From: a virus
DNA: 27,970 bases
Direction: 5' to 3' (one strand)
IMG/VR virus record: IMGVR_UViG_3300043444_000182
Location: 1 to 27,970 of that record
Below, one piece after another: positions 15,817 through 26,082 of the stretch. The position numbers were made by a program, and so were the translations under genes. Below the pieces are notes generated by a model. That model ran no database searches. It was not told the origin of the DNA and worked only from the letters and a program-made list of their open reading frames with translations. Each line of letters opens with the position of its first letter. Position 1 is the stretch's first letter.

Positions 15817-15822
15817 AATTGT

Positions 15823-15851
15823 ATTATATCCTCAAAGGTAGTCTGTGTCAA
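15823..15851 (-). promoter_or_regulatory. Early promoter giving a leaderless transcript (gene 15733)
   Basis: TTGACA (15846-15851), 17 bp, TATAAT (15823-15828), then ACAATT and ATG. The -35 and most of the spacer lie inside the end of the upstream gene (codons LDTDYL). Confidence 0.8.
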
Positions 15852-16062: not shown

Positions 16063-16088
16063 TGTGTGCTCCTTGTTGCGATGTATGT

Positions 16089-16117
16089 ATTATACTGTCA
16101 GCGACCAGCCTTGTCAA
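16089..16117 (-). promoter_or_regulatory. Early promoter (gene 15832-16062)
   Basis: TTGACA (16112-16117), 17 bp, TATAAT (16089-16094), followed by ACATACATCGCAACAAGGAGC. Confidence 0.85.
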
Positions 16118-16307
16118 TCATTTTCATGAACTGATTGTTGATTGCATCCATCTCACTCTGCTCCACATAGAAGTCAGTCTTGGGATCGTAGTAGCTGCCT
16201 TCCTTGGGATCGTAGTACAGAACACGCCCGGAGAAGTTGAACGGACCTTCTAGTCCTTTGCGGGTTCCGTACTGTTCGCGCATCGAATCCATTACCACGT
16301 ATGCCAT
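16098..16307 (-). CDS. Small Tyr/Asp-rich protein, unknown (69 aa)
   Basis: I choose MAYVVMDSMREQYGT as start (ATG 16305-16307), because GCAGGAG lies 7 nt upstream and the upstream gene ends 1 nt before it. The centre has a repeated motif YYDPKEGSYYDPKTDFY and the C-terminus is helical. Longer starts would run into the upstream gene. No family is recognised. Confidence 0.7.
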   Translation of the reverse strand: MAYVVMDSMREQYGTRKGLEGPFNFSGRVLYYDPKEGSYYDPKTDFYVEQSEMDAINNQFMKMIDKAGR

Positions 16308-16308
16308 A

Positions 16309-16422
16309 TCAAACTCCTGCAACAAAAGAAAGAGCAACCATAGACCACAGGGCCATCAGCTGGATGATACCGAAGTGGAACCCTGCCCAAATCAATGTAA
16401 CGATCCCGATCAGTTTCAGCAT
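16309..16422 (-). CDS. Small membrane peptide, 37 aa
   Basis: The frame from ATG 16420-16422 reads MLKLIGIVTLIWAGFHFGII..., entirely hydrophobic with one His and ending LSFVAGV. AAGGAGC is 5 nt before the ATG and a consensus promoter follows upstream. Its TGA is 1 nt before the ATG of the next gene. The ribosome binding site and promoter make it a real gene, although no family is known; one long or two short membrane helices. Confidence 0.68.
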   Translation of the reverse strand: MLKLIGIVTLIWAGFHFGIIQLMALWSMVALSFVAGV

Positions 16423-16448
16423 AGTCAGCTCCTTGTTGCGATGTATGT

Positions 16449-16477
16449 ATTATATCAGATCCCGCCCTGCCTGTCAA
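16449..16477 (-). promoter_or_regulatory. Early promoter (genes 16309 and 16098)
   Basis: TTGACA (16472-16477), 17 bp, TATAAT (16449-16454). It overlaps the last codons of the upstream gene. Confidence 0.85.
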
Positions 16478-16721
16478 CCCCTATCCAAGATTGTTCTGTG
16501 GCGATTGTGCAACACTCTGTGACATCTTTAAGGATCTTAGTCAGCTCTATGATGTTGATCTTCAGGAACTCCTGTGTGGCAAACAGTGCTGAATCCTGGG
16601 CATTGGCACCAGCACCTTCTACGGTTGAGAGTTGCTCACGGGCCTTGCGGACTTCTTCCAGGTAGGCCTGCTTGCCCTCAATGGTCTTGATCAGGTTGTC
16701 GCGGACGGTGTAGATGTTCAT
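16455..16721 (-). CDS. Small helical protein, unknown (88 aa)
   Basis: MNIYTVRDNLIKTIEGKQAYLEEVRKAREQL is a charged amphipathic helix, followed by an Ala-rich linker (TVEGAGANAQDSA) and a second helix (FLKINIIELTKILKDVTECC). Probably a helical hairpin or coiled coil. The ATG is 1 nt after the upstream TAA. The C-terminal codons contain the spacer and -35 of the next promoter. Confidence 0.7.
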   Translation of the reverse strand: MNIYTVRDNLIKTIEGKQAYLEEVRKAREQLSTVEGAGANAQDSALFATQEFLKINIIELTKILKDVTECCTIATEQSWIGVDRQGGI

Positions 16722-16722
16722 G

Positions 16723-17010
16723 TTAGGCTTTCAAGGAGTAGAACTGGAACTCTGTATTGAACAGGGTAACGGCAAAGCCATGAGCCTTAGGGTTTGTAGG
16801 CTTGCGATAGCCGAATCGCTTGGTGCTTTCTGCAACCTCAACTTCCCAACGGACCATCTGCATCAGGACCAACAGCACCATCAAGACAATGCTCACAGGC
16901 CAGAACAAGCAGAGCACGAACACTGTCAGGGCTTCTTCATGCGGAGCACGGAGTGCGAACAGGCCCTGCATTACCACAACACCTACCAAGTATGCTACGA
17001 TCATTTCCAT
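16723..17010 (-). CDS. Membrane protein, two TM segments (95 aa)
   Basis: MEMIVAYLVGVVVMQGLFAL and [27 protein letters not shown] are two membrane segments joined by RAPHE. The C-terminal 35 residues are soluble (WEVEVAESTKRFGYRKPTNPKAHGF). CAGGAG is 7 nt before the first ATG. It forms a pair with the helical protein at 16455. No family is recognised. Confidence 0.75.
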   Translation of the reverse strand: MEMIVAYLVGVVVMQGLFALRAPHEEALTVFVLCLFWPVSIVLMVLLVLMQMVRWEVEVAESTKRFGYRKPTNPKAHGFAVTLFNTEFQFYSLKA

Positions 17011-17043
17011 TTCTAACTCCTGTTTGTTGCTGTCTATGTATGT

Positions 17044-17072
17044 ATTATAAGACCTTTTGGCACTTTGGACAA
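17044..17072 (-). promoter_or_regulatory. Early promoter (genes 16723 and 16455)
   Basis: TTGTCC (17067-17072), 17 bp, TATAAT (17044-17049). The -35 is weaker than its neighbours. It directly follows the terminator at 17070-17099. Confidence 0.65.
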
Positions 17073-17099
17073 GAGAAACCCGCCATTGCGGCGGGCTTT
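17070..17099 (-). terminator. Intrinsic terminator after gene 17102
   Basis: The - strand reads AAAGCCCGCC-GCAAT-GGCGGGTTTCTCTT: a GC-rich stem with 5 nt loop and a short U-rich tail. Confidence 0.75.
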
Positions 17100-17101
17100 G
17101 T

Positions 17102-17314
17102 TTAGCGGACTGGACCTATGTAGTCTGCCCGCACATACCAATCGGGTGCAGAGCTGGCGGTGTTGTGCTCTCTGTTGTAGGCAATTGCTGCCTCACGAGC
17201 TTCCGCTTCGTTGTCGAAATACCAGGTGTCCCAGTGCTTCTGTCCCCAACCACGTTCATACTCGGTTAGCTCAACTTTGAAAGCCTGTACAGTGGGGGCG
17301 GTGATTCTTGCCAT
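17102..17314 (-). CDS. Small aromatic-rich protein, unknown (70 aa)
   Basis: MARITAPTVQAFKVELTEYERGWGQK and HWDTWYFDNEAEAREAAIAYNRE alternate strands and a helix, ending WYVRADYIGPVR. This looks like a small alpha/beta domain. AAAGGAG is 6 nt before the ATG. It is flanked by a promoter on one side and a strong terminator on the other, so it is monocistronic. Confidence 0.7.
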   Translation of the reverse strand: MARITAPTVQAFKVELTEYERGWGQKHWDTWYFDNEAEAREAAIAYNREHNTASSAPDWYVRADYIGPVR

Positions 17315-17340
17315 CTTCGACTCCTTTCTAATGAGTCTTT

Positions 17341-17368
17341 AGTATAGCATCTCTTGCCAAAAAGTCAA
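17341..17368 (-). promoter_or_regulatory. Early promoter (gene 17102)
   Basis: TTGACT (17363-17368), 16 bp, TATACT (17341-17346). The inverted repeat CTCTTG/CAAGAG encloses the -35. Confidence 0.7.
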
Positions 17369-17411
17369 GAGAAAAGATGAGCCCTGCGATGCTTCACAGC
17401 AGGCAGGGCTC
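17369..17411 (-). terminator. Strong hairpin after gene 17460
   Basis: GAGCCCTGC and GCAGGGCTC (17379-17411) form a perfect 9 bp stem on the - strand, followed by ATCTTTTC. A second hairpin, CCTGGG/CCCAGG, at 17417-17436 precedes it. Together they form a structured 3' end for the DNA-binding-like gene. Confidence 0.65.
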
Positions 17412-17459
17412 GGGTGCCTGGGACACTACCCCCAGGACTTAGGAGCGAACTCTCAGTTT

Positions 17460-17732
17460 TTAAGCAAGGCCGAGAGCAAGAGCCTTGTAACCTGCGGCAA
17501 CTACACGACGGCTAGGCATACCAATTTGGTATTCAGTAACGGTAACACCATTACCAGCCTTGCGAGTATTCGCATAAACTGCATAACCGGCACTGCGGAT
17601 ACGACTTGCTTCTGCACTGATATTCTTAATACCAAAACGCTTAGAAGCTTCTGCAGGAGTAACCTTTTCACCACTCTTTAGTGCTTGAAATAGCTTACCG
17701 GTTTTTGTTTCCATATTGATTCTCTTCAACAT
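17460..17732 (-). CDS. Helix-turn-helix-like protein (90 aa)
   Basis: LFQALKSGEKVTPAEASKRFGIKNISAEASRIRSAGYAVYAN reads as a winged helix: a first helix, the helix-turn-helix core (TPAEASKRFGI / SAEASRIRSAG) and a beta wing (VYANTRK...VTVTEYQIG). Similar small proteins occur in many marine phages. It probably binds DNA and could regulate transcription. AGAGGAA is 6 nt before the first ATG; a second ATG at codon 7 is also possible. A TATAAT (17745-17750) is seen but no good -35. The region is more AT-rich than its neighbours. Confidence 0.72.
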   Translation of the reverse strand: MLKRINMETKTGKLFQALKSGEKVTPAEASKRFGIKNISAEASRIRSAGYAVYANTRKAGNGVTVTEYQIGMPSRRVVAAGYKALALGLA

Positions 17733-17798
17733 TTTATTTCCTCTATATTATACTGCCTTAGCAGTTAGTATTAATAATACAGGAACTGTCGAAGAAAA

Positions 17799-18017
17799 TC
17801 AAGCATTAAATTTGCCAAATTCCTTATCTACATAGAACTGAATCAGTTCTCTTTGGATTTGAGTAATGAGATCGCCGTGATCTTCATTTACCACAAAACG
17901 AACTGGGCAACGACCCCAAGCACCTGACTTATTAAAGTCAGCGAACCAGCGCCGATGATCTTTATCCTTAGCGTTGAATACTACCCACGGACGACCGTGC
18001 AGTTGTAATCTACTCAT
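17799..18017 (-). CDS. Small basic protein, unknown (72 aa)
   Basis: MSRLQLHGRPWVVFNAKDKDHRRWFADF is followed by WGRCPVRFVVNEDHGDLITQIQRELIQFYVDKEFGKF. Trp/His-rich, likely a small alpha/beta fold. CGGAGC is 7 nt before the ATG. The leader contains CAACGGGGTC followed by TTAATATACA, a motif repeated near 26 kb, in place of a consensus promoter. Confidence 0.68.
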   Translation of the reverse strand: MSRLQLHGRPWVVFNAKDKDHRRWFADFNKSGAWGRCPVRFVVNEDHGDLITQIQRELIQFYVDKEFGKFNA

Positions 18018-18040
18018 TTGTTTGCTCCGTTAGTGTATAT

Positions 18041-18070
18041 TAAGACCCCGTTGAGTAGGTGGGGGTCTTA
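18041..18070 (-). terminator. Perfect 9 bp stem-loop with embedded CAACGGGGTC
   Basis: TAAGACCCC and GGGGTCTTA pair perfectly. The hairpin may terminate the gene at 18103 and lies immediately before gene 17799. Its stem includes one copy of the repeated CAACGGGGTC box. Confidence 0.55.
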
Positions 18071-18102
18071 TTGACGTTGCCCCCTGCCTTCACACGGCAG
18101 TA

Positions 18103-18507
18103 TTAGAAAGGTGCGTCTTCTGCGTCCGCAGGCACTGTGACCTTTTTGGCCTTAGCAGCTTTTGCCTTGATAGACTCCATAGTAGGCTTAGCTTTGGTCT
18201 TTGCGGCAGGCTTAACTGCTTTGACCTTCTCAACCTTAGCCACTTTGGCTTTGGGCTCTTTGGGAGCTCGCTTGCCCTGTTCTGCTTCGATAGCAGCTCG
18301 GACTTCTTTGTTGCCGTTGTCGAAGTCAATTGACAACAGATAGGCAACGGCTTCCTCTTTGTTCATAGGATGCTTGAGCTCGACAATATCGATATCGGTG
18401 TGACCATTCTTGATCAGCACCTTAGTGCGGAGGCTGTCATTTGCGAAACGCATTTTGAACTTACCGTCCAGTTTAGAAACACCTGCATGAGTGAAAGACT
18501 TAGACAT
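18103..18507 (-). CDS. Lys/Ala-rich protein with SSB-like acidic tip (134 aa)
   Basis: Residues 1-75 form a compact domain (MSKSFTHAGVSKLDGKFKMRFANDSLRTKVLIKNGHTDIDIVEL...). Residues 76-122 are a histone-H1-like Lys/Ala/Pro repeat (PKAKVAKVEKVKAVKPAAK...). The protein ends DAEDAPF, an acidic tip ending in Phe that resembles the protein-recruiting tail of bacterial SSB. Nucleic-acid binding is likely but not proven. AAGGAGATC precedes the ATG. Its leader is longer than usual and carries a hairpin (18540-18558). Confidence 0.72.
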   Translation of the reverse strand: MSKSFTHAGVSKLDGKFKMRFANDSLRTKVLIKNGHTDIDIVELKHPMNKEEAVAYLLSIDFDNGNKEVRAAIEAEQGKRAPKEPKAKVAKVEKVKAVKPAAKTKAKPTMESIKAKAAKAKKVTVPADAEDAPF

Positions 18508-18539
18508 ATTGATCTCCTTAAGTGAATGTCTGTGTGTTC

Positions 18540-18558
18540 TGCGTAACTCTCTTACGCA
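18540..18558 (-). other. Hairpin in the 5' leader of gene 18103
   Basis: TGCGTAA-GAGAG-TTACGCA on the - strand, a perfect 7 bp stem starting about 9 nt after the -10. It may stabilise the mRNA end. Confidence 0.55.
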
Positions 18559-18566
18559 TTAATTAA

Positions 18567-18595
18567 AGTATAACACCTTTGGACGGAGGTGTCAA
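18567..18595 (-). promoter_or_regulatory. Early promoter with palindromic spacer (gene 18103)
   Basis: TTGACA (18590-18595), 17 bp, TATACT (18567-18572). ACACCT and AGGTGT form an inverted repeat from the -35 through the spacer. Confidence 0.8.
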
Positions 18596-18608
18596 CCGTT
18601 TTCTGGAA

Positions 18609-18824
18609 TTAGGCGCCGTAGTAGGGACTATAGATCTCCTCATCTTGTGGCGCATCTGCCACACCAAAACTCTCCAAAACTTCGAGCACCATATCCACAG
18701 GGCAGTTCAGCTCTGCGGCAATCCGTTTGGCACTCAAGCCCTCGATGTACAGTTGCTCGATATCATACGCCAGTTCAGCGACCTTAGCCATAGCCATTTC
18801 CTTTTTACTTTTAAAACCCGGCAT
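18609..18824 (-). CDS. Small helix-turn-helix protein (71-72 aa)
   Basis: LAYDIEQLYIEGLSAKRIAAELNCPVDMVLEVLESFG has the spacing of a sigma-like or transposase-type helix-turn-helix, with a short acidic tail. I start at the ATG at 18822-18824, which overlaps the upstream TGA (TGATG); MAMAKVAEL or MAKVAEL a little downstream, after AAAAAGGAA, are also possible. Likely a DNA-binding regulator. It is the third gene of a unit with 18824 and 19012. Confidence 0.72.
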   Translation of the reverse strand: MPGFKSKKEMAMAKVAELAYDIEQLYIEGLSAKRIAAELNCPVDMVLEVLESFGVADAPQDEEIYSPYYGA

Positions 18825-19015
18825 CAATATGCCCCTTCTTCCAGTTGTTCGTCAGTTGTTTCAATCAGTTCGGCACCGCAGTCCAGCAGTCTGTTCAGGA
18901 TATCAACAATGTCTTGGGCACCTGCCCTGTGTCCTTCAAACAGTACTTCACCGCAGTGGCCCTTGACAGTGACCCAATCGCCACTGCCCAGACTGTTCGT
19001 AACAACCTTGATCAT
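18824..19015 (-). CDS. Small protein, unknown (63 aa)
   Basis: The start MIKVVTNSLG is chosen because its ATG overlaps the upstream TGA as ATGA. The product has a beta-rich first half (GSGDWVTVKGHCGEVLFEG) and a helical second half (AQDIVDILNRLLDCGAELIETTDEQ). It resembles small phage proteins of unknown function and is translationally coupled on both sides. Confidence 0.7.
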   Translation of the reverse strand: MIKVVTNSLGSGDWVTVKGHCGEVLFEGHRAGAQDIVDILNRLLDCGAELIETTDEQLEEGAY

Positions 19016-19410
19016 TCTTCGCACTCCTCACGTGATTGGAACTCAAAAGCGTCCTGCATAGACAGGTACTCGCCGTCTGTGCCGTACATAGACACATACC
19101 AACGGCCGTCGCGTCGCAGGATGTAGTCGTACTCCTCACGCTGGCACTCACGTGCGTACTCTTGGAAGTCCTTGTACATACGCTGGGGGTTCAGTTCCTC
19201 GCCACGCTTGGTGTAAAACTCGCAGTCCGCAACATTCTCAGACAGCGTAGAAGTGTCGCCACCGTCAAGCAGGTCGCGCACTTTGAAAGCGTCTGTGTAG
19301 TGCTCTTGCAGGATCTTGCCGTTGTGATCCAAGTAGCCGTCCCAGTGGCAGTAGATCTGCCCAACAGTACCGTCTGCGTATTCCAGTGCAATAGTAGAAC
19401 GAGTTGCCAT
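19012..19410 (-). CDS. Conserved phage protein, unknown (132 aa)
   Basis: MATRSTIALEYADGTVGQIYCHWDGYLDHNGKILQEHY is a highly conserved opening that I recognise from many phage and some bacterial hypothetical proteins; no function is known. The rest has a region of Asp, Tyr and Arg (YKDFQEYARECQREEYDYIL) and a strand-rich end (RWYVSMYGTDGEYL). AAGGAGC is 7 nt before the ATG. It is the first gene of a three-gene coupled unit. Confidence 0.8.
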   Translation of the reverse strand: MATRSTIALEYADGTVGQIYCHWDGYLDHNGKILQEHYTDAFKVRDLLDGGDTSTLSENVADCEFYTKRGEELNPQRMYKDFQEYARECQREEYDYILRRDGRWYVSMYGTDGEYLSMQDAFEFQSREECEE

Positions 19411-19443
19411 TTCAAGTGCTCCTTAGTGTGTCAGTATGTATCT

Positions 19444-19472
19444 ATTATAACCCCAAACTGCTGTTTGGGCAA
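19444..19472 (-). promoter_or_regulatory. Early promoter with palindrome (gene 19012)
   Basis: TTGCCC (19467-19472), 17 bp, TATAAT (19444-19449). The palindrome CCCAAAC-TGCT-GTTTGGG (19452-19469) runs from the -35 into the spacer. Confidence 0.8.
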
Positions 19473-19475
19473 CCA

Positions 19476-19619
19476 TTAACCCTTCTTCTTGGCGGGCTTT
19501 TGTTTAGCTTCCTGAGCGGCGATCTTGCCGCTATAGGCACTGCCAGCCTTGTGGATCAGGCCAGTCTTGGTGAAAGTGATGGTGCCGCCAGTGCTGGAAG
19601 GAATAGTTTTACCGATCAT
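19476..19619 (-). CDS. Small Lys/Ala-rich protein, unknown (47 aa)
   Basis: The frame from ATG 19617-19619 gives MIGKTIPSSTGGTITFTKTG, then LIHKAGSAYSGKIAAQEAKQ and a basic end KPAKKKG. TTAGGAGCAC and a consensus promoter precede it, so it is a real gene despite its length. The basic tail suggests nucleic-acid contact. No family is recognised. Confidence 0.7.
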   Translation of the reverse strand: MIGKTIPSSTGGTITFTKTGLIHKAGSAYSGKIAAQEAKQKPAKKKG

Positions 19620-19651
19620 TGTGTGCTCCTAAGTGCGTTGTTGATGTGTGT

Positions 19652-19680
19652 ATTATAACACCGTTTAGCCTCGGTGTCAA
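19652..19680 (-). promoter_or_regulatory. Early promoter with palindromic spacer (gene 19476)
   Basis: TTGACA (19675-19680), 17 bp, TATAAT (19652-19657). ACACCG (19658-19663) and CGGTGT (19672-19677) form an exact inverted repeat. Confidence 0.85.
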
Positions 19681-19731
19681 CCCCGGCGACTACCCAGGCG
19701 TGTTGCAGGGCGTATGGCCGGGATTGGCACT

Positions 19732-19998
19732 TCAGCAATCAGGGTCAAAGTCTGCCCACTCTTGCGCTTCGTCAGGCTGACCATCGCGCTCTTCGCGCTC
19801 CAATTCTTCTTGAAGTTCCTCGCTCATAGACATGAAGTCCTCGCACATGCCAAACAGTGCTTCAAAGTAACGACGCTCGTCCCTGTTCATCTCACGCAGG
19901 AACATAGGGCCTTCTTCTTGCATTGCCTGCACAACCTGTTGCAGGGCCAGGAAAGTGTTGTTGCACATGCAGTAGGACATGTTAGGGTAGTTAGACAT
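19732..19998 (-). CDS. Acidic helical protein, unknown (88 aa)
   Basis: MSNYPNMSYCMCNNTFLALQQVVQAMQEEG is followed by a long, very acidic helix (MSMSEELQEELEREERDGQPDEAQEW) and ends FDPDC. It has four cysteines, two as CMC near the N-terminus. Net charge is strongly negative, which could suit a DNA-mimic or an inhibitor, but this is only a possibility. AAGGAGC is 4 nt before the ATG. Confidence 0.7.
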   Translation of the reverse strand: MSNYPNMSYCMCNNTFLALQQVVQAMQEEGPMFLREMNRDERRYFEALFGMCEDFMSMSEELQEELEREERDGQPDEAQEWADFDPDC

Positions 19999-20029
19999 TT
20001 CAGCTCCTTAGTGCGTTGTTGATGTGTGT

Positions 20030-20058
20030 ATTATAACAGGGTTTGGAAACCCTGTCAA
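20030..20058 (-). promoter_or_regulatory. Early promoter with perfect 20 bp palindrome (gene 19732)
   Basis: TTGACA (20053-20058), 17 bp, TATAAT (20030-20035). ACAGGGTTTGGAAACCCTGT at 20036-20055 is a perfect palindrome filling the whole spacer and part of the -35. This could be an operator or a cruciform/hairpin. Confidence 0.85.
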
Positions 20059-20066
20059 GTGGCGGG

Positions 20067-20255
20067 TTATTCTGCTTCCAGCTCCTCTATAGCTTCCTCA
20101 AGCGTGTCTATAATGTTGTCAATCTCATTGTGCAACTCATAGCACACATCTCCATCCAGCTCTGCTGTGCCTACTTGTTGCAGTGCATCAACATCCTGTA
20201 GCAGTGCAATTGCCTCACGCAGTTTGTCTGCCTTTTGCTTGTTTGTTAGTTGCAT
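20067..20255 (-). CDS. Acidic coiled-coil protein, unknown (62 aa)
   Basis: MQLTNKQKADKLREAIALLQDVDALQQV ... NEIDNIIDTLEEAIEELEAE has heptad-like hydrophobic spacing over most of its length. It resembles its upstream neighbour (20287) in size and helical acidic character. AGGAAC precedes the ATG by 7 nt. Its promoter lies inside the end of that neighbour. No family is recognised. Confidence 0.7.
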   Translation of the reverse strand: MQLTNKQKADKLREAIALLQDVDALQQVGTAELDGDVCYELHNEIDNIIDTLEEAIEELEAE

Positions 20256-20277
20256 CTCTCGTTCCTGTTAAAACTGT

Positions 20278-20306
20278 ATTTTAGCATCAGTCCAAGTAGT
20301 AGTCAA
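20278..20306 (-). promoter_or_regulatory. Early promoter inside upstream coding end (gene 20067)
   Basis: TTGACT (20301-20306), 17 bp, TAAAAT (20278-20283). The -35 and spacer code the last residues VDYYLD of the upstream gene. Confidence 0.7.
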
Positions 20307-20451
20307 CCACCTGTTGTAGTTGTGCTACAGCACTTTGTACCTCAGCCCACACGTCGCCAATCTCTGCAAGTTGCACCTTGTCACATTCTGCGTCAAACAG
20401 CATCTCATCAACCTCTGCAATTTTAGCAAGTATCTGTTCCTTCAACGTCAT
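20287..20451 (-). CDS. Small acidic helical protein (54 aa)
   Basis: The frame from ATG 20449-20451 reads MTLKEQILAKIAEVDEMLFD, AECDKVQLAEIGDVWAEVQS and AVAQLQQVVDYYLD. It is helical with coiled-coil-like spacing. AAGGAGCAC is 2-3 nt before the ATG and a strong promoter precedes it. The similarity in style to 20067 suggests a diverged duplicate, but identity is low. Confidence 0.72.
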   Translation of the reverse strand: MTLKEQILAKIAEVDEMLFDAECDKVQLAEIGDVWAEVQSAVAQLQQVVDYYLD

Positions 20452-20476
20452 GTGTGCTCCTTGTTGCTAAGTGTGT

Positions 20477-20505
20477 ATTATAACGCAAACACAGCACAGC
20501 GTCAA
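20477..20505 (-). promoter_or_regulatory. Early promoter in a hairpin (gene 20287)
   Basis: TTGACG (20500-20505), 17 bp, TATAAT (20477-20482). The -35 is in the loop of the 20490-20524 stem-loop. Confidence 0.8.
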
Positions 20506-20524
20506 TCAATAACCCTGTGCTGTG
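20490..20524 (-). terminator. 10 bp stem-loop enclosing the -35
   Basis: CACAGCACAG pairs with CTGTGCTGTG, followed by TTTG on the - strand. Probable terminator of gene 20533 fused to the next promoter. Confidence 0.65.
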
Positions 20525-20532
20525 CTCAACTA

Positions 20533-20856
20533 TTACGCTTCCATGCTCGCGTAGTTGTCCTCTTGCATACCCTGCTCTGTAAATGTTACAGCAAAACCCA
20601 CAGCGTCGCTAATAGCATTTTCAAAAGCACTGTCTGTATAAATGTCCCATGTGCTGTCGTGTTGCACATTTACCATTGTGTAAAATTCTTGTTCATAAAT
20701 GTTATTAATAACAGTAATACCTGTAACATTTACTTTTCTACCTGCCTCACAGCCCCACAAGCCGTCCCCTGCTGTAGTAACAGCAAACGCACAATCAAAC
20801 TCTGTAATAATACAATCTACATCACGTTCAAAACGCACAAGTGTTAATTTTTGCAT
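20533..20856 (-). CDS. Beta-rich protein, unknown (107 aa)
   Basis: MQKLTLVRFERDVDCIITEFDCAFAVTT ... VNVTGITVINNIYEQEFYTMVNVQHDSTWDIYTDSAF is strand-rich, with a short helix before the acidic C-terminus. CAGGAGC is 6 nt before the ATG. Codons here and in the next gene are more T- and A-rich than in neighbours, with Gly-poor composition, so the pair may be of separate origin. No family is recognised. Confidence 0.7.
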   Translation of the reverse strand: MQKLTLVRFERDVDCIITEFDCAFAVTTAGDGLWGCEAGRKVNVTGITVINNIYEQEFYTMVNVQHDSTWDIYTDSAFENAISDAVGFAVTFTEQGMQEDNYASMEA

Positions 20857-20879
20857 TGCTTTGCTCCTGTTAAAAATGT

Positions 20880-20908
20880 ATTATAACGCAAAACAAAGCA
20901 CAGCGCAA
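20880..20908 (-). promoter_or_regulatory. Early promoter downstream of terminator stem (gene 20533)
   Basis: TTGCGC (20903-20908), 17 bp, TATAAT (20880-20885). The -35 is inside the terminator stem at 20889-20928. Confidence 0.7.
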
Positions 20909-20928
20909 GCAATAACCCTGCGCTGTGC
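20889..20928 (-). terminator. Intrinsic terminator overlapping a promoter
   Basis: GCACAGCGCA pairs perfectly with TGCGCTGTGC across an 11 nt loop and is followed by TTTGTTTT on the - strand. It ends gene 20936 and overlaps the next promoter. Confidence 0.8.
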
Positions 20929-20935
20929 AGTGTTA

Positions 20936-21172
20936 TTAAAACAGTTCTACAACGTTGTTTGTACGCAGTTGTTTTTTAGCCACAGCAATAGCTTGTTGCA
21001 AACTGTGTGCAACATATTCTGCACTGTCAGTAAAACTAGCTACATCTCCTGTAACTAGTACAGCATTTTGCACTGTAATACGATTGTGTGCATCAAAACT
21101 AAAAACTAAACGATAAGTTTGCAAACGCTTGTTTTTAACTAGTTTTGCGTACAGTGTGCAATTTGTTTGCAT
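20936..21172 (-). CDS. Small protein, unknown (78 aa)
   Basis: MQTNCTLYAKLVKNKRLQTYRLVFSFDAHNRITVQNAVLVTG is strand-rich, followed by an alanine-rich helix (EYVAHSLQQAIAVAKKQLRTNNVVELF). AAGGAGC is 5 nt before the ATG. It shares the AT-leaning codon use of gene 20533. No family is recognised. Confidence 0.68.
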   Translation of the reverse strand: MQTNCTLYAKLVKNKRLQTYRLVFSFDAHNRITVQNAVLVTGDVASFTDSAEYVAHSLQQAIAVAKKQLRTNNVVELF

Positions 21173-21197
21173 AAGTGCTCCTTGTTAGTGTAAGTGT

Positions 21198-21226
21198 ATT
21201 ATAACGCAACACTAACAAGAGAGCAA
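21198..21226 (-). promoter_or_regulatory. Early promoter (gene 20936)
   Basis: TTGCTC (21221-21226), 17 bp, TATAAT (21198-21203), just after a terminator hairpin. Confidence 0.7.
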
Positions 21227-21228
21227 CC

Positions 21229-21252
21229 AAAAACCCTGAGGACTGTAGGGTT
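21229..21252 (-). terminator. Intrinsic terminator after gene 21251
   Basis: AACCCT-ACAGTCCTC-AGGGTTTTT on the - strand: short 6 bp stem with a U-tract. Confidence 0.65.
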
Positions 21253-21805
21253 ATTCTTGATCTTCCTCCTCATACTGTGCCATCTCCTCTGAGATGCCAA
21301 AGTAGTCATCCAACTCAGCGCCAATCGCTTCACGCACAGTAGCAGAAGTCTCGCCACTGTATTCGTAATAGTCGTCCTCACCATTGTCCCACTTGCCCAC
21401 AAAGCACATGCCGGGCTCGTAATACATGGCTTCAACCTCAAAGCCCAGAGCCATCAGTTTCTCATAAGCACCAGTGGGAGGAGCCCAGGCACTTTCAAAG
21501 CTCGCTGTCACTGTGTTAGGATCCTGTCGCTCAACGTTCTCCAAGTTGAAATCCCACTTGGTACCCCAATTGGCCACATTCCAATCGTACCAGTCCTTGT
21601 AGCCATACTTCTCAATGTTGGCTGCTTGCTGGGCTTCGTGAGCGGCTCGCTTGTCCTCACCCATAAAGCCAGATACAGTATCAATCAGCTCTTGGGGAGT
21701 AGGCAAGAACTCCATCAGCAGGCCTTCTTGGCCTTTGATCACGCGATCGATCATTGCAGGGTCTGCGTGACGCAGTGTAATACCGTTTGAGCACCAATTA
21801 GGCAT
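21251..21805 (-). CDS. Api92/YubB-like protein with ferredoxin-like domain (DUF1281)
   Basis: The 184-residue protein starts MPNWCSNGITLRHADPAMIDRV, the signature opening of the DUF1281/Api92-like family found in phages and plasmids. WGTKWDFNLENVERQ and SFESAWAPPTGAYEKLMALGF follow, then a very acidic C-terminus (EEMAQYEEEDQE). Function is unknown in the family. It overlaps the upstream gene by 8 bp and is the last of a three-gene unit (21990, 21798, 21251). Confidence 0.78.
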   Translation of the reverse strand: MPNWCSNGITLRHADPAMIDRVIKGQEGLLMEFLPTPQELIDTVSGFMGEDKRAAHEAQQAANIEKYGYKDWYDWNVANWGTKWDFNLENVERQDPNTVTASFESAWAPPTGAYEKLMALGFEVEAMYYEPGMCFVGKWDNGEDDYYEYSGETSATVREAIGAELDDYFGISEEMAQYEEEDQE

Positions 21806-21980
21806 TTTCCATCTCCTTGCGTTGTGCTACTTCGTAGCGAAGTTCATCGTCAGTAAAGTTCCTGTAGCCTTTGAAGCCAAAGCCCAGGTAAGAGTCCAAC
21901 AGCTCGGGACCGTTGGCACAATCCATGATGTACCTGAAGTCCGAGTCAATCAGGTAGTCGACCATTTCTTCGCGATCCAT
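21798..21980 (-). CDS. Small acidic protein, unknown (60 aa)
   Basis: MDREEMVDYLIDSDFRYIMDCANGPELLDSYLGFGFKGYRNFTDDEL is a compact helical protein with conserved-looking Tyr and Gly positions; similar proteins occur next to DUF1281 genes in phages. AAGGAGCCGCT precedes the ATG. It overlaps the next gene by 8 bp. Confidence 0.7.
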   Translation of the reverse strand: MDREEMVDYLIDSDFRYIMDCANGPELLDSYLGFGFKGYRNFTDDELRYEVAQRKEMENA

Positions 21981-21989
21981 AGCGGCTCC

Positions 21990-22247
21990 TTAGTAGTATT
22001 CGTGAATTTCAACAGAGGGATCCAAAGCCAACAGCTCTGCCGCAACCTTGTGCAGTGCGGCACGACGGGCCATAACCTGTCGAGCAGGCAGTTCGCCATC
22101 GCAGGAAATGTTTTCTGGGCTTAGAGCGCAGTCAATGTCACGGGCCAGTTCCTGGCGGTCTGCGGCACTCTTGAGGTTGAGCTCCTTACCACCAAACAGT
22201 TTAGCCCACTTGTTCTTGGACTCTACATACGCTTTGAGATTTTGCAT
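21990..22247 (-). CDS. Small helical protein, unknown (85 aa)
   Basis: MQNLKAYVESKNKWAKLFGGKELNLKSAADRQELARDIDCALSP is followed by CDGELPARQVMARRAALHKVAAELLALDP. Largely helical with basic patches. The stop overlaps the ribosome binding site of the next gene (TAAGGAGC). AAGGAGC is 5 nt before its own ATG. No family is recognised. Confidence 0.7.
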   Translation of the reverse strand: MQNLKAYVESKNKWAKLFGGKELNLKSAADRQELARDIDCALSPENISCDGELPARQVMARRAALHKVAAELLALDPSVEIHEYY

Positions 22248-22274
22248 CGTCTGCTCCTTAGTGTGTAAGCCTTA

Positions 22275-22303
22275 ATTATATAGAGGTTTTACCAGTTTGT
22301 CAA
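22275..22303 (-). promoter_or_regulatory. Early promoter (genes 21990-21251)
   Basis: TTGACA (22298-22303), 17 bp, TATAAT (22275-22280). The TGA stop of the upstream gene (22300-22302) is inside the -35. The leader TTAAGGCTTACACACTAAGGAGC is shared with the gene at 23718. Confidence 0.85.
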
Positions 22304-22533
22304 TCCAGCGCCTTATATAACCCTAGAACGCATAGGGCTATTGCTACACCGTTGATGATCATCTGTTGCTTATTTGCCACACGGTAGCTCCACGTAAAGA
22401 AGCAAATGGCACCCCCGAGCCCTGCCCAAATATTGTAGGGGTGCATGTTGGGAAAGAAATTCATTAATGCATACATCACAAGAATGAACGCAGTCCCAAC
22501 CCACTGTAGTACTTCATTCGACTGCGATCGCAT
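22300..22533 (-). CDS. Membrane protein, three TM segments (77 aa)
   Basis: MRSQSNEVLQWVGTAFILVMYALMNFF, NIWAGLGGAICFFTWSYRV and MIINGVAIALCVLGLYKAL are three hydrophobic segments, with the N-terminus short. The pattern is like small polytopic phage and bacterial proteins but I cannot name the family. It begins inside the end of gene 22514 (20 bp overlap), with only a weak ribosome site, so it depends on coupling. Confidence 0.75.
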   Translation of the reverse strand: MRSQSNEVLQWVGTAFILVMYALMNFFPNMHPYNIWAGLGGAICFFTWSYRVANKQQMIINGVAIALCVLGLYKALD

Positions 22534-22867
22534 TCAGCTTCTCTTTCAAACGTTTGACTTCTTGTTTTGCTTCGTGCATAGCTTCGATCAGGCAGTCTTC
22601 AACTGTTCCGTCAGTGAGCACATCTGCGGCATTCTCGTACAAGCATCCGCCCAGGTAGTGCGAGCCCAACTCGTGTCCGTCCAGCATAACACGCACTCGC
22701 AACATGAACCAATCGTACTTGCCCGACTCAATGTCTGCGTAGAGTTTGCGCTTAGAGTCAAAGCATTCGCTCAACTGTGACCAAGGGTCAATGTCCTCAT
22801 AGGTCTTATCTACAAACACAAGAAACCCGTCGCGTTCGAATGTAGCCAGCTCGTCATAGTGTCGCAT
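22514..22867 (-). CDS. Conserved phage protein, unknown (117 aa)
   Basis: MRHYDELATFERDGFLVFVDKTYEDIDPWSQL, WFMLRVRVMLDGHELGSHYLGGCLYENA and a C-terminal charged helix EAMHEAKQEVKRLKEKL. The motif LxxHYLGGCLYE looks conserved, but function is unknown. AAGGAGC is 5 nt before the ATG. It is the first gene of a pair with the membrane protein at 22300. Confidence 0.72.
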   Translation of the reverse strand: MRHYDELATFERDGFLVFVDKTYEDIDPWSQLSECFDSKRKLYADIESGKYDWFMLRVRVMLDGHELGSHYLGGCLYENAADVLTDGTVEDCLIEAMHEAKQEVKRLKEKLNAIAVE

Positions 22868-22892
22868 GTTTGCTCCTTAGTGTGAAGTGTAT

Positions 22893-22922
22893 ATTATACA
22901 CCCGGTTTTACCACAATGTCAA
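22893..22922 (-). promoter_or_regulatory. Early promoter entirely inside a coding sequence (gene 22514)
   Basis: TTGACA (22917-22922), 18 bp, TATAAT (22893-22898). The upstream gene's TAA stop (22894-22896) is inside the -10. CCGGTT and AACCGG form an inverted repeat around the -35. Confidence 0.8.
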
Positions 22923-23034
22923 CCGGATATCCGTCGTGGTTGATCAGGCTGTCACGTACATACTTTTGATCGCAGTTCTTGGTGAAGAACACACGATCGA
23001 TCCACTTGCCCTTGTGAAATACATTCCAACTCAT
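22894..23034 (-). CDS. Small phage protein, unknown (46 aa)
   Basis: The frame from ATG 23032-23034 reads MSWNVFHKGKWIDRVFFTKN, then CDQKYVRDSLINHDGYPVDI and VVKPGV. The pattern VxxGxxxDxVFFxxxCDxxYVRxxLIxHDGY is one I recognise from small phage hypothetical proteins. The start overlaps the upstream TGA (ATGA). The next promoter is coded by its last 9 codons, and the stop lies in that promoter's -10. Confidence 0.75.
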   Translation of the reverse strand: MSWNVFHKGKWIDRVFFTKNCDQKYVRDSLINHDGYPVDIVVKPGV

Positions 23035-23216
23035 TCTTCGTCCTCCTCGTCCTGCTCGATAATGTCGTTGGCCTTCATCATCTCTGCTACATCGTACTCC
23101 GAGAGCCAGCTCAATGCCATGTCTGCCACAGCGCGAGCGTCGATCAAGCCCTCGTCCATCATGTCGATCAGACGGTTAGTTGCAGGGCGAACTTTGCGAT
23201 GATCAAATCCGTACAT
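23031..23216 (-). CDS. Small acidic protein, unknown (61 aa)
   Basis: MYGFDHRKVRPATNRLIDMMDEGLIDARAVADMALSWLSEYDVAEMM is helical and similar in outline to small proteins common in phages, with an acidic end DEEDEE. AAGGAGC is 4 nt before the ATG. It is coupled to the 46-residue gene by ATGA. Confidence 0.7.
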   Translation of the reverse strand: MYGFDHRKVRPATNRLIDMMDEGLIDARAVADMALSWLSEYDVAEMMKANDIIEQDEEDEE

Positions 23217-23247
23217 TAGAGCTCCTTAGTGCGTTGTTGATGTGTGT

Positions 23248-23276
23248 ATTATAACAGGATTCAAAGACCCTGTCAA
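23248..23276 (-). promoter_or_regulatory. Early promoter with palindromic spacer (genes 23031, 22894)
   Basis: TTGACA (23271-23276), 17 bp, TATAAT (23248-23253). ACAGGGT...ATCCTGT is a near-palindrome and relates this cassette to that at 20030-20058. Confidence 0.85.
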
Positions 23277-23284
23277 GTGGCGGG

Positions 23285-23641
23285 TTATTCGAAGCTTACG
23301 CTTACATCGACCTCAATGTCTGTTACTTCGCCAGCGAGATTAAACTTCAAGCCCGTAACAGCCGCGCCGTAGCGAGCAGCCTCAAGCCGGCGCTCAATTT
23401 CGTGCTTGAGATCGCCAATCATGTCGTTGAGAAAGTCCCCAGCGCTGTCTTTAACGCCTTTCAGCGTTTCATTGATCGCGTTACGGCTCATGTCCTCTTG
23501 CCCGTCCATGATCATCTCAATAAAGCCCTCAGTCTGGTTGATCAAGGCACTCTCAACAACGGCGTCGATCAGCTCCCGCTTTGCCCACAGAATTTCGCTG
23601 GCTTTGAAAGTCTTCTCGCCTGCTTTGTAAATGACTGACAT
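23285..23641 (-). CDS. Helical protein, unknown (118 aa)
   Basis: MSVIYKAGEKTFKASEILWAKRELIDAVVESALINQTEGF ... DFLNDMIGDLKHEIERRLEAARYG is a mainly helical protein with an amphipathic central region, then a strand-rich end (KFNLAGEVTDIEVDVSVSFE). AAGGAGCAC precedes the ATG. Monocistronic by promoter and hairpin placement. No family is recognised. Confidence 0.7.
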   Translation of the reverse strand: MSVIYKAGEKTFKASEILWAKRELIDAVVESALINQTEGFIEMIMDGQEDMSRNAINETLKGVKDSAGDFLNDMIGDLKHEIERRLEAARYGAAVTGLKFNLAGEVTDIEVDVSVSFE

Positions 23642-23667
23642 AGTGTGCTCCTTGTTGCGATGTGTGT

Positions 23668-23697
23668 ATTATAACACCATTTGGGCAGGGCTGTCAA
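23668..23697 (-). promoter_or_regulatory. Early promoter in a hairpin loop (gene 23285)
   Basis: TTGACA (23692-23697), 18 bp, TATAAT (23668-23673). The -35 lies in the loop of the stem at 23683-23708. Confidence 0.8.
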
Positions 23698-23708
23698 TAA
23701 CCCTGCCC
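23683..23708 (-). terminator. GGGCAGGG/CCCTGCCC stem enclosing the -35
   Basis: A perfect 8 bp stem with a 10 nt loop that contains the -35 box. No U-tract follows, so terminator function is uncertain; it may be a PeSL-type stem-loop. Confidence 0.55.
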
Positions 23709-23717
23709 ACTGTAGGG

Positions 23718-24011
23718 TTAAGCGTACTCGCGTTCGTCTGCAATCACTGTCAGCATACTAGCAGGCACCCGCCACAGACCGCTGATGGTCTTGACTGTAA
23801 CATACTTGATCGCGATCTTTGTGACCACGCCCGTATAGTTTTGGCCAGTTTTGGTGCTGGTGAAATTGACGTTTGAGCCCAAGGTGATCGAGCGCTTGTT
23901 CTTCTCGCTCAGGCGTGCCCGGGCAAACTTGACAGCATCGATGATCGAGCCCAGTTGCTCGTTAGTGAAGTTGCCTGCCAAGATCTCTGCATTAACGGTT
24001 TGAATTGACAT
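23718..24011 (-). CDS. Small phage protein with SH3/KOW-like end (97 aa)
   Basis: Residues 1-40 are helical (SIIDAVKFARARLSEKNKR) and residues 41-90 form alternating strands LGSNVNFTSTKTGQNYTGVVTKIAIKYVTVKT-SGLWRVPASMLTVI, as in KOW/SH3-like small barrels. Similar proteins are frequent in marine phages. RNA or protein binding is plausible, not shown. AAGGAGC is 6 nt before the ATG. Confidence 0.75.
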   Translation of the reverse strand: MSIQTVNAEILAGNFTNEQLGSIIDAVKFARARLSEKNKRSITLGSNVNFTSTKTGQNYTGVVTKIAIKYVTVKTISGLWRVPASMLTVIADEREYA

Positions 24012-24039
24012 TCAAGTGCTCCTTAGTGTGTAAGCCTTA

Positions 24040-24068
24040 ATTATACGGTAAAACCAAAGACCTGTCAA
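24040..24068 (-). promoter_or_regulatory. Early promoter (gene 23718)
   Basis: TTGACA (24063-24068), 17 bp, TATAAT (24040-24045). The spacer is nearly identical to that at 15256-15284 and the leader to that at 22275. Confidence 0.85.
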
Positions 24069-24080
24069 GTCTTAGGGTCT

Positions 24081-24356
24081 TTACATAGACCAGTAGAGTT
24101 CCGAGCTAGGATCGCACGAACGAGGCGTGTCGTGTGCGATCTCAACCATTTGCCCGGTCATCAAGTTCTTTACCCACTTGGTCGTAGGCACAACCTCAAC
24201 ACGGAACTGGCTCGCAGGCCAAACAGCCTCTACTTCTCGGATCACTGTGAGTGCATCCCGGCCTTCCCATACTGTAGTGGATACCAGTCGCTCGCCAGTC
24301 TTGCAACGACGATCTGTTTTCCAAACGTATGCGGTATGTCGTGTTCTATCAACCAT
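24081..24356 (-). CDS. Small protein, unknown (91 aa)
   Basis: MVDRTRHTAYVWKTDRRCKTGERLVSTTVWEGRDALTVIREVEAVWP is followed by FRVEVVPTTKWVKNLMTGQMVEIAHDTPRSCDPSSELYWSM. The two-half layout with a conserved-looking KxVKNLMTGxMVE resembles phage proteins of unknown function. GAGGAG is 7 nt before the ATG; the ATG is 1 nt after the upstream TGA, so it is coupled to the GIY-YIG-like gene. Confidence 0.7.
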   Translation of the reverse strand: MVDRTRHTAYVWKTDRRCKTGERLVSTTVWEGRDALTVIREVEAVWPASQFRVEVVPTTKWVKNLMTGQMVEIAHDTPRSCDPSSELYWSM

Positions 24357-24357
24357 G

Positions 24358-24696
24358 TCAGTCTCCTCGGCAGTCAGTGTTCAATGCGGGCTCAAGCTCG
24401 CGGCGGATTTGTACTTCTAGCGCATGACCTTCTGCTTTGCCACGCACTACGGCCAAAACACGAACAACAATCTCGCTCTTGTCGTTGAGCTCACGCAGAG
24501 CTTCGCACAATAGCCAGTTCTTGCCTTCTGTCTTAGCACGATAAAAGTGCTTGGCAGCTCGTGTCTTTGCCGACTTCAATGCAGTGCTTTCTGTCTTTGC
24601 AGTAACGCCTACATAGGTCAAGCCCATGACGTTCAGCTCATAGACCACATGAGTGCGGTCAGTGCGCTTTTTACGATGTGTGTTTGTTGCTGTCAT
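24358..24696 (-). CDS. GIY-YIG-like domain protein, leaderless (112 aa)
   Basis: I start at MTATNTHRKKR (ATG 24694-24696). VVYELNVMGLTYVGVTAKTESTALKSAKTRAAKHFYRAK has the layout of a GIY-YIG domain (a Tyr strand, then YVG, a basic residue and a conserved His), and HALEVQIRRELEPALNTD has the Glu and the closing Pro/Asn-Thr-Asp found at the end of such domains. The GIY triad is degenerate, so nuclease activity is uncertain. No ribosome site exists: the ATG is at the predicted +1. Longer starts would include the promoter. Confidence 0.65.
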   Translation of the reverse strand: MTATNTHRKKRTDRTHVVYELNVMGLTYVGVTAKTESTALKSAKTRAAKHFYRAKTEGKNWLLCEALRELNDKSEIVVRVLAVVRGKAEGHALEVQIRRELEPALNTDCRGD

Positions 24697-24702
24697 GTGT
24701 GT

Positions 24703-24731
24703 ATTATAGCAAGGTTTTACCACAAGGTCAA
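24703..24731 (-). promoter_or_regulatory. Early promoter giving a leaderless transcript (gene 24358)
   Basis: TTGACC (24726-24731), 17 bp, TATAAT (24703-24708), then ACACAC and ATG. Confidence 0.78.
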
Positions 24732-24733
24732 GC

Positions 24734-24755
24734 AAAACCCTACAGTCTGTAGGGT
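24734..24755 (-). terminator. Intrinsic terminator after gene 24766
   Basis: CCCTACAG-A-CTGTAGGG followed by TTTT on the - strand. The loop is only one base in the written stem, so the outer 6-7 pairs are likely to form. Confidence 0.75.
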
Positions 24756-24765
24756 CGTTGTATTT

Positions 24766-24906
24766 TTACAACATTTCTTCGTCTAGAGCGCAGGCAAGTG
24801 CGTTAAAAGCATTTTGTATGCTTTCGTTTTCCTCGAACTCCTGGTCTATTAATGCTTGTAATTGTAACAAGGCTTTGTCGATTTGCAGTTTGTATTGGTC
24901 TTGCAT
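24766..24906 (-). CDS. Small acidic coiled-coil protein, unknown (46 aa)
   Basis: The frame from ATG 24904-24906 reads MQDQYKLQIDKALLQLQALI, DQEFEENESIQNAFNALACA and LDEEML. It has heptad-like Leu/Ile spacing. AGGGAGC is 4 nt before the ATG, a consensus promoter lies upstream and a terminator downstream, so it is an independent gene. No family is recognised. Confidence 0.72.
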   Translation of the reverse strand: MQDQYKLQIDKALLQLQALIDQEFEENESIQNAFNALACALDEEML

Positions 24907-24926
24907 TCTAGCTCCCTTAAAACTGT

Positions 24927-24955
24927 ATTATAACGCAAACTGAGCCGGCCGTCAA
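24927..24955 (-). promoter_or_regulatory. Early promoter (gene 24766)
   Basis: TTGACG (24950-24955), 17 bp, TATAAT (24927-24932). It abuts the U-tract of the terminator at 24956-24984. Confidence 0.8.
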
Positions 24956-24984
24956 GAAAAGACCCTAAAACCACAAGGGTCTTA
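24956..24984 (-). terminator. Terminator of the tRNA/non-coding transcript
   Basis: AAGACCCT-TGTGGTTTT-AGGGTCTTTTC on the - strand: 7-8 bp stem and a U-tract that runs into the next -35 box. Confidence 0.75.
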
Positions 24985-25208
24985 GGGTTTCTCAGTCGTG
25001 TGCTGGGCAGGTCTCCCACACACGCCCCATCCAGTTGTTCCTGCAGGGTATCAGCCCGCGAGCCCTAACCTCTTGCCGAATTAGGTCCTGGATTCTGAAC
25101 AGTTACAGTGGTCTATGACAACTACTTCACAGCCTTCTTTACAGCTCTCGGGCGGCAAGCCCCTGCTGTCAGCCCAGCTGATATATCCTGTTCTTCTAGG
25201 GTTTAAAT
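24985..25208 (-). ncRNA. Candidate structured RNA downstream of the tRNA
   Basis: No reading frame of useful length is present on either strand. The - strand contains several hairpins: CGTGTG-TGGG/CCCA-G-CACACG (24997-25024, 10 bp with one bulge), CCTAA/TTAGG around 25055-25085, and GGGC/GCCC around 25150. It is bounded by the tRNA and an intrinsic terminator, so it should be transcribed with the tRNA. It may be a processed small RNA or the remains of other tRNA genes. Confidence 0.4.
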
Positions 25209-25284
25209 TGGTGGGCCCAGTGTGATTCGAACACACGACCAAAGGATTATGAGTCCTCTGCTCTCACCGCTGAGCTATAGGCCC
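25209..25284 (-). tRNA. tRNA with anticodon CAU (Met elongator or Ile2)
   Basis: The - strand folds into a full cloverleaf: acceptor GGGCCTA/TGGGCCC with encoded CCA, D stem GCTC/GAGC, anticodon stem GAGGA/TCCTT with loop CTCATAA (anticodon CAT), T stem GTGTG/CACAC with loop TTCGAAT. The variable region TTGGTCG resembles bacterial Ile2 tRNAs, whose CAU is changed by TilS to read AUA, but an elongator Met cannot be excluded. It is not an initiator, because the stem lacks the GGG/CCC pairs. Confidence 0.92.
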
Positions 25285-25296
25285 CTCTCAACTAAT

Positions 25297-25325
25297 ATTA
25301 TACAGTCACTTGCCTATGCTAGCAA
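25297..25325 (-). promoter_or_regulatory. Promoter of the tRNA
   Basis: TTGCTA (25320-25325), 17 bp, TATAAT (25297-25302), placed in the last codons of the glycosyltransferase-like gene, about 12 nt before the tRNA. Confidence 0.65.
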
Positions 25326-26049
25326 GCGGAAAGTAGTTCCAGTCTGACAGCAGTACGGGCGTTAGATCCATCTTACTACGGCGGATAAACCACTTGTCCC
25401 TATGCATGTCCAGGCCATCCACTAGGTTGCTGTAGCAGCTATCAATTAGATACAGTGACTCCGCGCCCTCTAGTACTTTAAGCCAGTCTAATGCATTATC
25501 ACTAACACCTTCCCGGATCTTTACCACTTGATAACCAGCAGCTTCAGCTTCACTCCAGTCTAGATCTACACGTACATCCGACCCTTGATCATGTACTACT
25601 ATATACTTGTCCCCAGTAACAACCTGCTTATACACCCTATCTTCTGCAACGGGGTCACGAGTTATACACTCAGTCAACCGTTGTTTGTTCTTAAATGGCA
25701 CTCCCGCCACTGCATACTTGTATTGATCGAACTTTAATATTGGGAACAGATCCGGATCACTTAGTTCGGGCATATTGCTTAGGAACTGATACAAGCATAT
25801 GATGTCCTCGCAGTCCCTATACTTCAAGTTATTGAGTGCATGGAAGTAAAAGAACGACCCATCACGAGTAGTCTTTAACGGGATCCATTCTACCCAAGGA
25901 GCACACTTACGCATTGTGCTAATAAACTCTTCACAAATGGGCCAGAGAATCTCATCGTATCCAGCCTCCTTATAGTGCAGTGCAATGGGCAGAGCAATGA
26001 TCAGATCGCCCAATCCACGACTCTGTATAATACCTATCCTTCTAGTCAT
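25306..26049 (-). CDS. Glycosyltransferase family 9-like protein (heptosyltransferase-type)
   Basis: The 247-residue protein opens MTRRIGIIQSRGLGDLIIALPIAL, the N-terminal nucleotide-sugar-transferase signature of GT9 (GxGDxIxxLPxA), followed by YDEILWPI. The C-terminal part has YIVVHDQGSD, VVKIREG and LIDSCYSNLVDGLDM, comparable to the sugar-nucleotide side of GT9 (an acidic IDS motif). It is shorter than bacterial heptosyltransferases (about 320-350). It may glycosylate the host envelope or a phage product; the acceptor is unknown. AAAGGA is 5 nt before the ATG. Its upstream region contains a CAACGGGGTC box on the other strand. Confidence 0.72.
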   Translation of the reverse strand: MTRRIGIIQSRGLGDLIIALPIALHYKEAGYDEILWPICEEFISTMRKCAPWVEWIPLKTTRDGSFFYFHALNNLKYRDCEDIICLYQFLSNMPELSDPDLFPILKFDQYKYAVAGVPFKNKQRLTECITRDPVAEDRVYKQVVTGDKYIVVHDQGSDVRVDLDWSEAEAAGYQVVKIREGVSDNALDWLKVLEGAESLYLIDSCYSNLVDGLDMHRDKWFIRRSKMDLTPVLLSDWNYFPLASIGK

Positions 26050-26059
26050 ATATCCTTTA

Positions 26060-26069: not shown

Positions 26070-26082
26070 ACTGTATATACAG

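Follow-up and report, generated by a model that had tools for sequence, protein, structure and literature searches.

Predicted sigma70-type promoters overlap stop-codon-linked RNA hairpins in an uncultured, apparently T4-related phage clade

The T4-type phages RB49 and phi1 reportedly carry promoter-early stem-loops (PeSLs), described by Arbiol et al. in Genome Biol Evol in 2010. Each PeSL is said to combine a sigma70-like promoter with a stem-loop that works as a terminator, and to mediate shuffling. Two reviews of T4-related phages left PeSLs unmentioned, and a literature search on overlapping promoters and terminators in phages found nothing direct. In Kayvirus phages, which use the host RNA polymerase, intrinsic terminators consist of a stem-loop followed by poly-T (PMC7698491). 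Further, in vitro work has described recycling termination, or facilitated reinitiation, by bacterial RNA polymerase at bacterial terminators that lie close to promoters (PMC11347151).

The window, a 27,970-nt viral record of IMG/VR analysed as a whole, is part of a larger phage, since it shares 8,164 bases at 100% identity with a 140,615-base contig (L088). Gene 13630-14499 encodes an nrdC.10-like ATPase, a type present in T4-type phages; the protein matched 1,236 phage records, T4 and RB32 included, and among cultured phages it is closest to PA5oct-like Pseudomonas phages (49% identity). By the sequence of this one gene, the phage is T4-related. Between 14.5 and 26.3 kb, the minus strand holds many small genes, most with their own predicted host-type promoter; a promoter scan of positions 10000-27970 gave 39 hits against 21.8 expected, including 13 exact TTGACA-17/18-TATAAT pairs and 5 more that carry a single mismatch. 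Also on the minus strand are a lone tRNA-Met (CAT) gene at 25209-25325, with a promoter of its own (TTGCTA-17-TATAAT), and, at 4667-9805, the gene of a 1,712-aa tail fibre protein that combines collagen repeats with an S74 peptidase (endosialidase chaperone) domain at its C-terminus.

The focal site, at 20880-20928 on the minus strand, had been described as an intrinsic terminator with a perfect 10 bp stem, whose stem and loop hold the next promoter (Table 1). The 10 perfect pairs are present, and the stem is longer than described, as a G.T and a G-C pair bring it to 12; its RNA fold has a free energy of -26.3 kcal/mol (z = -5.9 versus shuffles), and the sequence 3′ of the stem (20928-20898) is TTTGTTTTGC. 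The -35 indeed lies in the same stem, though it is a poor match to consensus. As for the promoter as a whole, the -35 is within the hairpin at four of the five sites originally named and the -10 is outside it at all five. Rfam returned no family at the focal site, its sole family being tRNA-Met. The two flanking genes, 20533-20856 and 20936-21172, have low GC3 (0.33 and 0.22, respectively) and scarce GA/TC dinucleotides (0.062 and 0.034, respectively, versus about 0.12 elsewhere), and are likely recent arrivals or subject to an unusual sequence avoidance.

Table 1. Hairpins, promoter elements and flanking genes in the window; -35 coordinates are given in brackets.
Feature	Start	End	Strand	Basis or remark
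Focal hairpin, 12 bp, loop GTTATTG	20898	20928	-	starts 7 nt past stop codon of 20936-21172
T-rich tail TTTGTTTT 3′ of focal stem	20890	20897	-	within promoter spacer
Focal -35 TTGCGC, within descending arm	20903	20908	-	3/6 consensus bases
Focal -10 TATAAT (perfect), predicted promoter of 20533-20856	20880	20885	-	17-nt spacer
Upstream small gene, putatively ended by focal hairpin	20936	21172	-	78 aa, no PHROG match
Downstream small gene	20533	20856	-	107 aa, no PHROG match
Paralogous cassette: 13-bp hairpin, -35 TTGACG (20500-20505) in loop; -10 at 20477-20482	20487	20527	-	z -7.1
16-bp hairpin, TTGACA (14556-14561) in loop/inner stem	14539	14575	-	z -6.1; covariation in 8 relatives
11-bp hairpin, TTGACA (23692-23697) in loop/stem, without U-tract	23682	23709	-	z -2.9
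Classical upstream terminator (predicted); tail CTTTTC meets -35 TTGACG (24950-24955)	24962	24988	-	folding, scan
Hairpin AAAGACC/GGTCTTT, TTGACA (24063-24068) in loop	24055	24083	-	clade hairpin survey
Spacer hairpin TGACAGGGTTtccaAACCCTGTTA, between -35 and -10	20034	20057	-	z -4.1
Spacer hairpin; cassette paralogous to 19995-20072	23252	23275	-	hairpin survey and self-repeat
Spacer hairpin ACACCG/CGGTGT	19656	19679	-	hairpin survey
Spacer hairpin CCCAAA/TTTGGG	19452	19469	-	hairpin survey
Spacer hairpin GACACCT/AGGTGTT	18571	18594	-	hairpin survey
Classical upstream terminator (predicted) meeting -35 TTGTCC (17067-17072)	17076	17098	-	hairpin survey

The original prediction saw the same fusion at 14545, 20490, 23683 and 24956, with a U-tract running into the -35. 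At 14545, 20490 and 23683, the -35 does lie inside a strong hairpin, but any T run sits in the spacer; at 24956, by contrast, the hairpin is a classical terminator upstream of the -35 (24988-24962, T-run sequence CTTTTCTTGACG), and there, as at 17076-17098, the T run does reach the -35. Two arrangements had been merged: a -35 within the hairpin, and a T run that meets the -35. The paralogous cassette at 20487-20527 aligns with the focal one over 53 bp at 91% identity, and the promoter at 14539-14575 is predicted to drive the nrdC.10-like gene. At 23682-23717 (minus strand), and at position 7650 of L093, two mutually exclusive hairpins can form in an attenuator-like manner, AACCCT/AGGGTT upstream of the -35 versus a larger hairpin around it.

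A survey that covered the window together with 84 related loci from metagenomes (80 found via the nrdC.10-like protein and 4 via a leader motif), with genes called by a simple codon model of our own, yielded 525 non-redundant sigma70-type promoters that precede a called gene. In the 329 promoters of the co-directional class, the position of the -35 ranges from 12 nt inside the end of a co-directional upstream gene to 60 nt past its stop codon. Overlapping hairpins were counted at -5 kcal/mol or better, with energies from a simple helix model that gives tetraloops no bonus, and compared with dinucleotide shuffles that preserve the -35. A hairpin over the -35 or the spacer was found at 142 of the 329 promoters versus 52 ± 5 in shuffles, and upstream hairpins numbered 67 versus 27 expected, with a shuffle-based significance that is somewhat inflated, as promoters of related phages are not fully independent. 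Promoters inside the upstream coding sequence have no clear hairpin excess (15/88 versus 10 ± 3 shuffled), and at divergent promoters the excess is absent (1/12 versus 1.2 shuffled). In a complementarity map that chooses no hairpins, pairing runs along diagonals with their centre at the -35 and along others in the spacer (z of 4-6, versus a maximum of 2.0-3.1 for permuted columns). Overall, the promoter-hairpin fusion is real and far beyond chance at the level of the clade. The hairpin is not obligatory, because 195 of the 329 intergenic promoters have none at -7 kcal/mol or better. Synteny blocks start at promoters threefold more often than expected (28% versus 9%), and a -10 is present in all 18 self-repeats listed for the early region of the window.

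A separate spacer motif, GGTAAAACC or its complement GGTTTTACC, occurs at 56 of the 525 promoters. In particular, GGTAAAACC is found in 48 spacers, in 47 of them 9-11 bases past the first base of the -35, and GGTTTTACC in 8; in the window, the promoters concerned have their -10 at 24708, 22898, 22280, 24045 and 15261 (minus strand). The motif may be an operator or may represent another type of cassette.

Relatives of the 14545 site retain the gene pair and the TTGACA with an altered stem sequence. Nine orthologous sequences have the -35 inside the hairpin and carry 8 distinct arms around an invariant TTGACA; seven of the first eight stem pairs are standard in 9/9 sequences and the remaining one in 8/9, with up to four pair types at a single stem position. 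The two arms of one sequence pair better with each other than with arms exchanged between sequences, and the observed pairing was matched by 0 of 20,000 permutations. In 15 other relatives, the hairpin at the nrdC.10-like promoter is found in the spacer instead; for example, in TTGACAGGGGC-tacg-GCCCCTGTTATAAT, the -35 contributes its ACA to the stem, paired with the TGT that precedes the -10.

The loops indicate which strand is at work. Among 34 distinct tetraloop hairpins, 14 have GNRA and 4 have UNCG loops (about 2% each in shuffles), and 0 have the complement of either; as these loops occur in the gene sense only, the hairpin would act as RNA of that sense. Its place relative to the promoter changes with the distance between the stop codon and the -35. 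Spacer hairpins occur at 46/160 promoters whose -35 is 0-15 nt past the stop versus 3/78 at 15-40 nt (Fisher p = 2e-6), while the 15-40 nt group is richer both in hairpins around the -35 (27/78 versus 10/160, p = 5e-8) and in upstream hairpins (17/78 versus 5/160, p = 9e-6). The distance from stop to stem has a median of 9-11 nt in both overlapping classes. The simplest reading of these positions is that the upstream gene places the hairpin and that the promoter is laid over it. Because the hairpins are enriched only after co-directional genes, have covarying stems and GNRA/UNCG loops, and keep a steady distance from the stop, they probably mark the 3′ end of the upstream transcript. The original proposal that one unit's 3′ end and the next start share the same bases is well supported by this co-directional enrichment, the near-constant stop distance and the compensatory changes around an unchanged -35. 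That proposal went on to suggest that the sharing may set a fixed ratio of read-through to new starts, a point on which the sequence data are neutral.

Whether the hairpins resemble intrinsic terminators depends on the copy. A U-tract was scored as at least 5 T in the 7 bases after the stem's last G-C pair; a count after the longest possible stem, which conceals short runs of T paired to A bases upstream, gave no T excess for the clade hairpins. By the former measure, such tracts follow 37% of upstream hairpins versus 3% at the same positions of other promoters, 18% of the hairpins that contain the -35 versus 2%, and none of the spacer hairpins (0% background). Long T runs do occur in these phages, at some of the ends of convergent genes. 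Among the features of canonical terminators, a GC-rich hairpin is present, and a U-tract directly follows the stem at 20898-20928 and 24962-24988; across the clade, the spacer class has none and the -35 class has it weakly. The label of intrinsic terminator, originally given to all of these sites, suits the focal copy with its good T-rich tail and is too strong for all copies, because the U-tracts are short or absent in most. Intrinsic termination thus looks plausible for the focal copy and for some others, and the spacer-class hairpins may be weak terminators or 3′ caps.

We consider it likely that the hairpin forms the upstream transcript's 3′ end, with the next promoter overlaid on it in a PeSL-like cassette and the units insulated from one another. 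The early region would be a row of small genes, most with their own host-type sigma70 promoter, in which a stable RNA hairpin about 9 nt past the stop codon provides the 3′ end of the transcript; laying the next promoter over it would save space, and the distance from stop to promoter would set whether the hairpin falls before the -35, around it, or between the -35 and the -10. In T-tailed copies, including the focal one, the hairpin would end or partly end upstream transcription, and it would also cap the RNA's 3′ end. Such insulation probably separates the tightly packed genes, keeping the upstream RNA polymerase from running over the next promoter, and the cassettes would act like the PeSLs of RB49. 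The overlap, enrichment, covariation, orientation, stop-codon link and cassette recurrence were computed, and from these we infer promoter activity, termination at the hairpin and its insulating role. Counting against this reading are the poor focal -35 and the lack of a good U-tract at most overlapping hairpins, unlike some convergent gene ends.

The same tails bear on whether the hairpins might be 3′ caps and not terminators, with polymerase stopping elsewhere (e.g. through Rho) and exonucleases trimming back to the stem, or with RNases cutting read-through RNA there. The missing U-tracts of the spacer class, the loops, which are the most stable RNA tetraloops, and the stems' close trailing of the stop codon would all suit a cap; however, T-rich tails exceed background at the focal copy, at 24956, at 17076-17098 and in a minority of hairpins around the -35 as well as in the upstream class, and RB49 PeSL stem-loops have reportedly proved effective terminators. 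Caps without termination seem unlikely. More doubtful still is a coupled termination and re-initiation, in which host RNA polymerase would release its RNA at the hairpin, stay on the DNA at the overlapping promoter and be passed on from one gene of the early region to the next; this hand-off idea builds on recycling termination (PMC11347151).

The dyads could also be DNA operators or cruciforms that control the downstream promoter, as the -35 and spacer are a usual location of operators and the separate GGTAAAACC motif, complement included, occurs in spacers as well. Yet the stems vary between sites and covary, their position tracks the upstream stop codon, divergent and intragenic promoters lack the enrichment, and a cruciform has no need of GNRA/UNCG loops on the coding sense only. 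We regard operators as very improbable; the covariation, the coding-sense tetraloops and the absence of enrichment at divergent promoters largely refute them. Chance overlap, arising where intergenic regions are compact and promoter flanks are rich in T or in GC, has on its side that these regions are short (median 65-81 nt) and crowd features together, and that some weak hairpins are expected in any case (52/329 in shuffles), but against it stand about 90 promoters above shuffles, the covariation, the tetraloop bias and the distance dependence. It is scarcely credible as an explanation, and at clade level the shuffle excess and the complementarity map refute it; single weak sites, such as 15261, may be chance.

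Judged by covariation and statistics, an uncultured T4-related clade appears to place two opposite signals on the same bases, one ending a transcript and the other starting the next; the hairpin keeps to the stop codon while the promoter slides over it. Many such hairpins would escape standard terminator finders, since their U-tract is short and the -35 may sit in the loop. The clade offers hundreds of natural constructs for asking whether termination at a hairpin feeds re-initiation from the neighbouring promoter, and how promoters cope with a stem at the -35.

The closest comparison is RB49, whose DNA was tested directly (about 99 kb, 36 promoters). Its promoters have spacer hairpins in 10/36 cases (among them 6714, 7859 and 19527 of L096) versus 1.2 in shuffles, upstream hairpins in 8/36 versus 1.2, the -10 inside a hairpin in 6/36 versus 0, and the -35 inside a hairpin in 1/36 versus 2.6. 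The RB49 early promoters with the -10 in a hairpin loop or stem are at 3179, 36963, 39107 and 42332 of L095 and at 4915 and 44231 of L096; one example is GGGAGTATgctataATACTCCC. The present clade lacks this type: a search there for hairpins around the -10 gave no excess (11 versus 13.8 expected). Promoter-hairpin overlap is occasional in phage K (3/27 versus 0.9) and SPO1 (2/13 versus 0.7), and PA5oct, with only 6 such promoters in 49 kb, has too few for use. Like Kayvirus, the present clade places GC-rich stem-loops after small genes and beside strong consensus promoters; unlike Kayvirus terminators, most of its overlapping hairpins lack poly-T, and the promoter overlap is systematic, not occasional. 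The likeness to recycling termination is that hairpin termination beside a promoter could return the same polymerase there, and the difference is that a terminator and promoter in the same bases are not discussed in the part of that work cited (PMC11347151).

With the PeSLs of RB49 and phi1, the present clade shares a strong sigma70-like promoter (TTGAC-17-TATAAT type) and a stem-loop in a small intergenic cassette, and such cassettes are dispersed among the small genes of a plastic region. Cassette recurrence and synteny breaks at cassettes are likewise PeSL-like, and the spacer hairpins of RB49 have the same layout. The two differ in that several upstream stem-loops of RB49 have clear T-runs, whereas most overlapping stems of the present clade do not, and in that hairpins surround the -10 in RB49, whereas in the present clade they often enclose the -35 (the best class at 38 promoters). 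The comparison suggests that RB49-type cassettes are widespread beyond cultured phages. On sequence grounds, the present system is PeSL-like, and the -35 inside the hairpin is a new variant relative to PeSLs as reported for RB49 and phi1.
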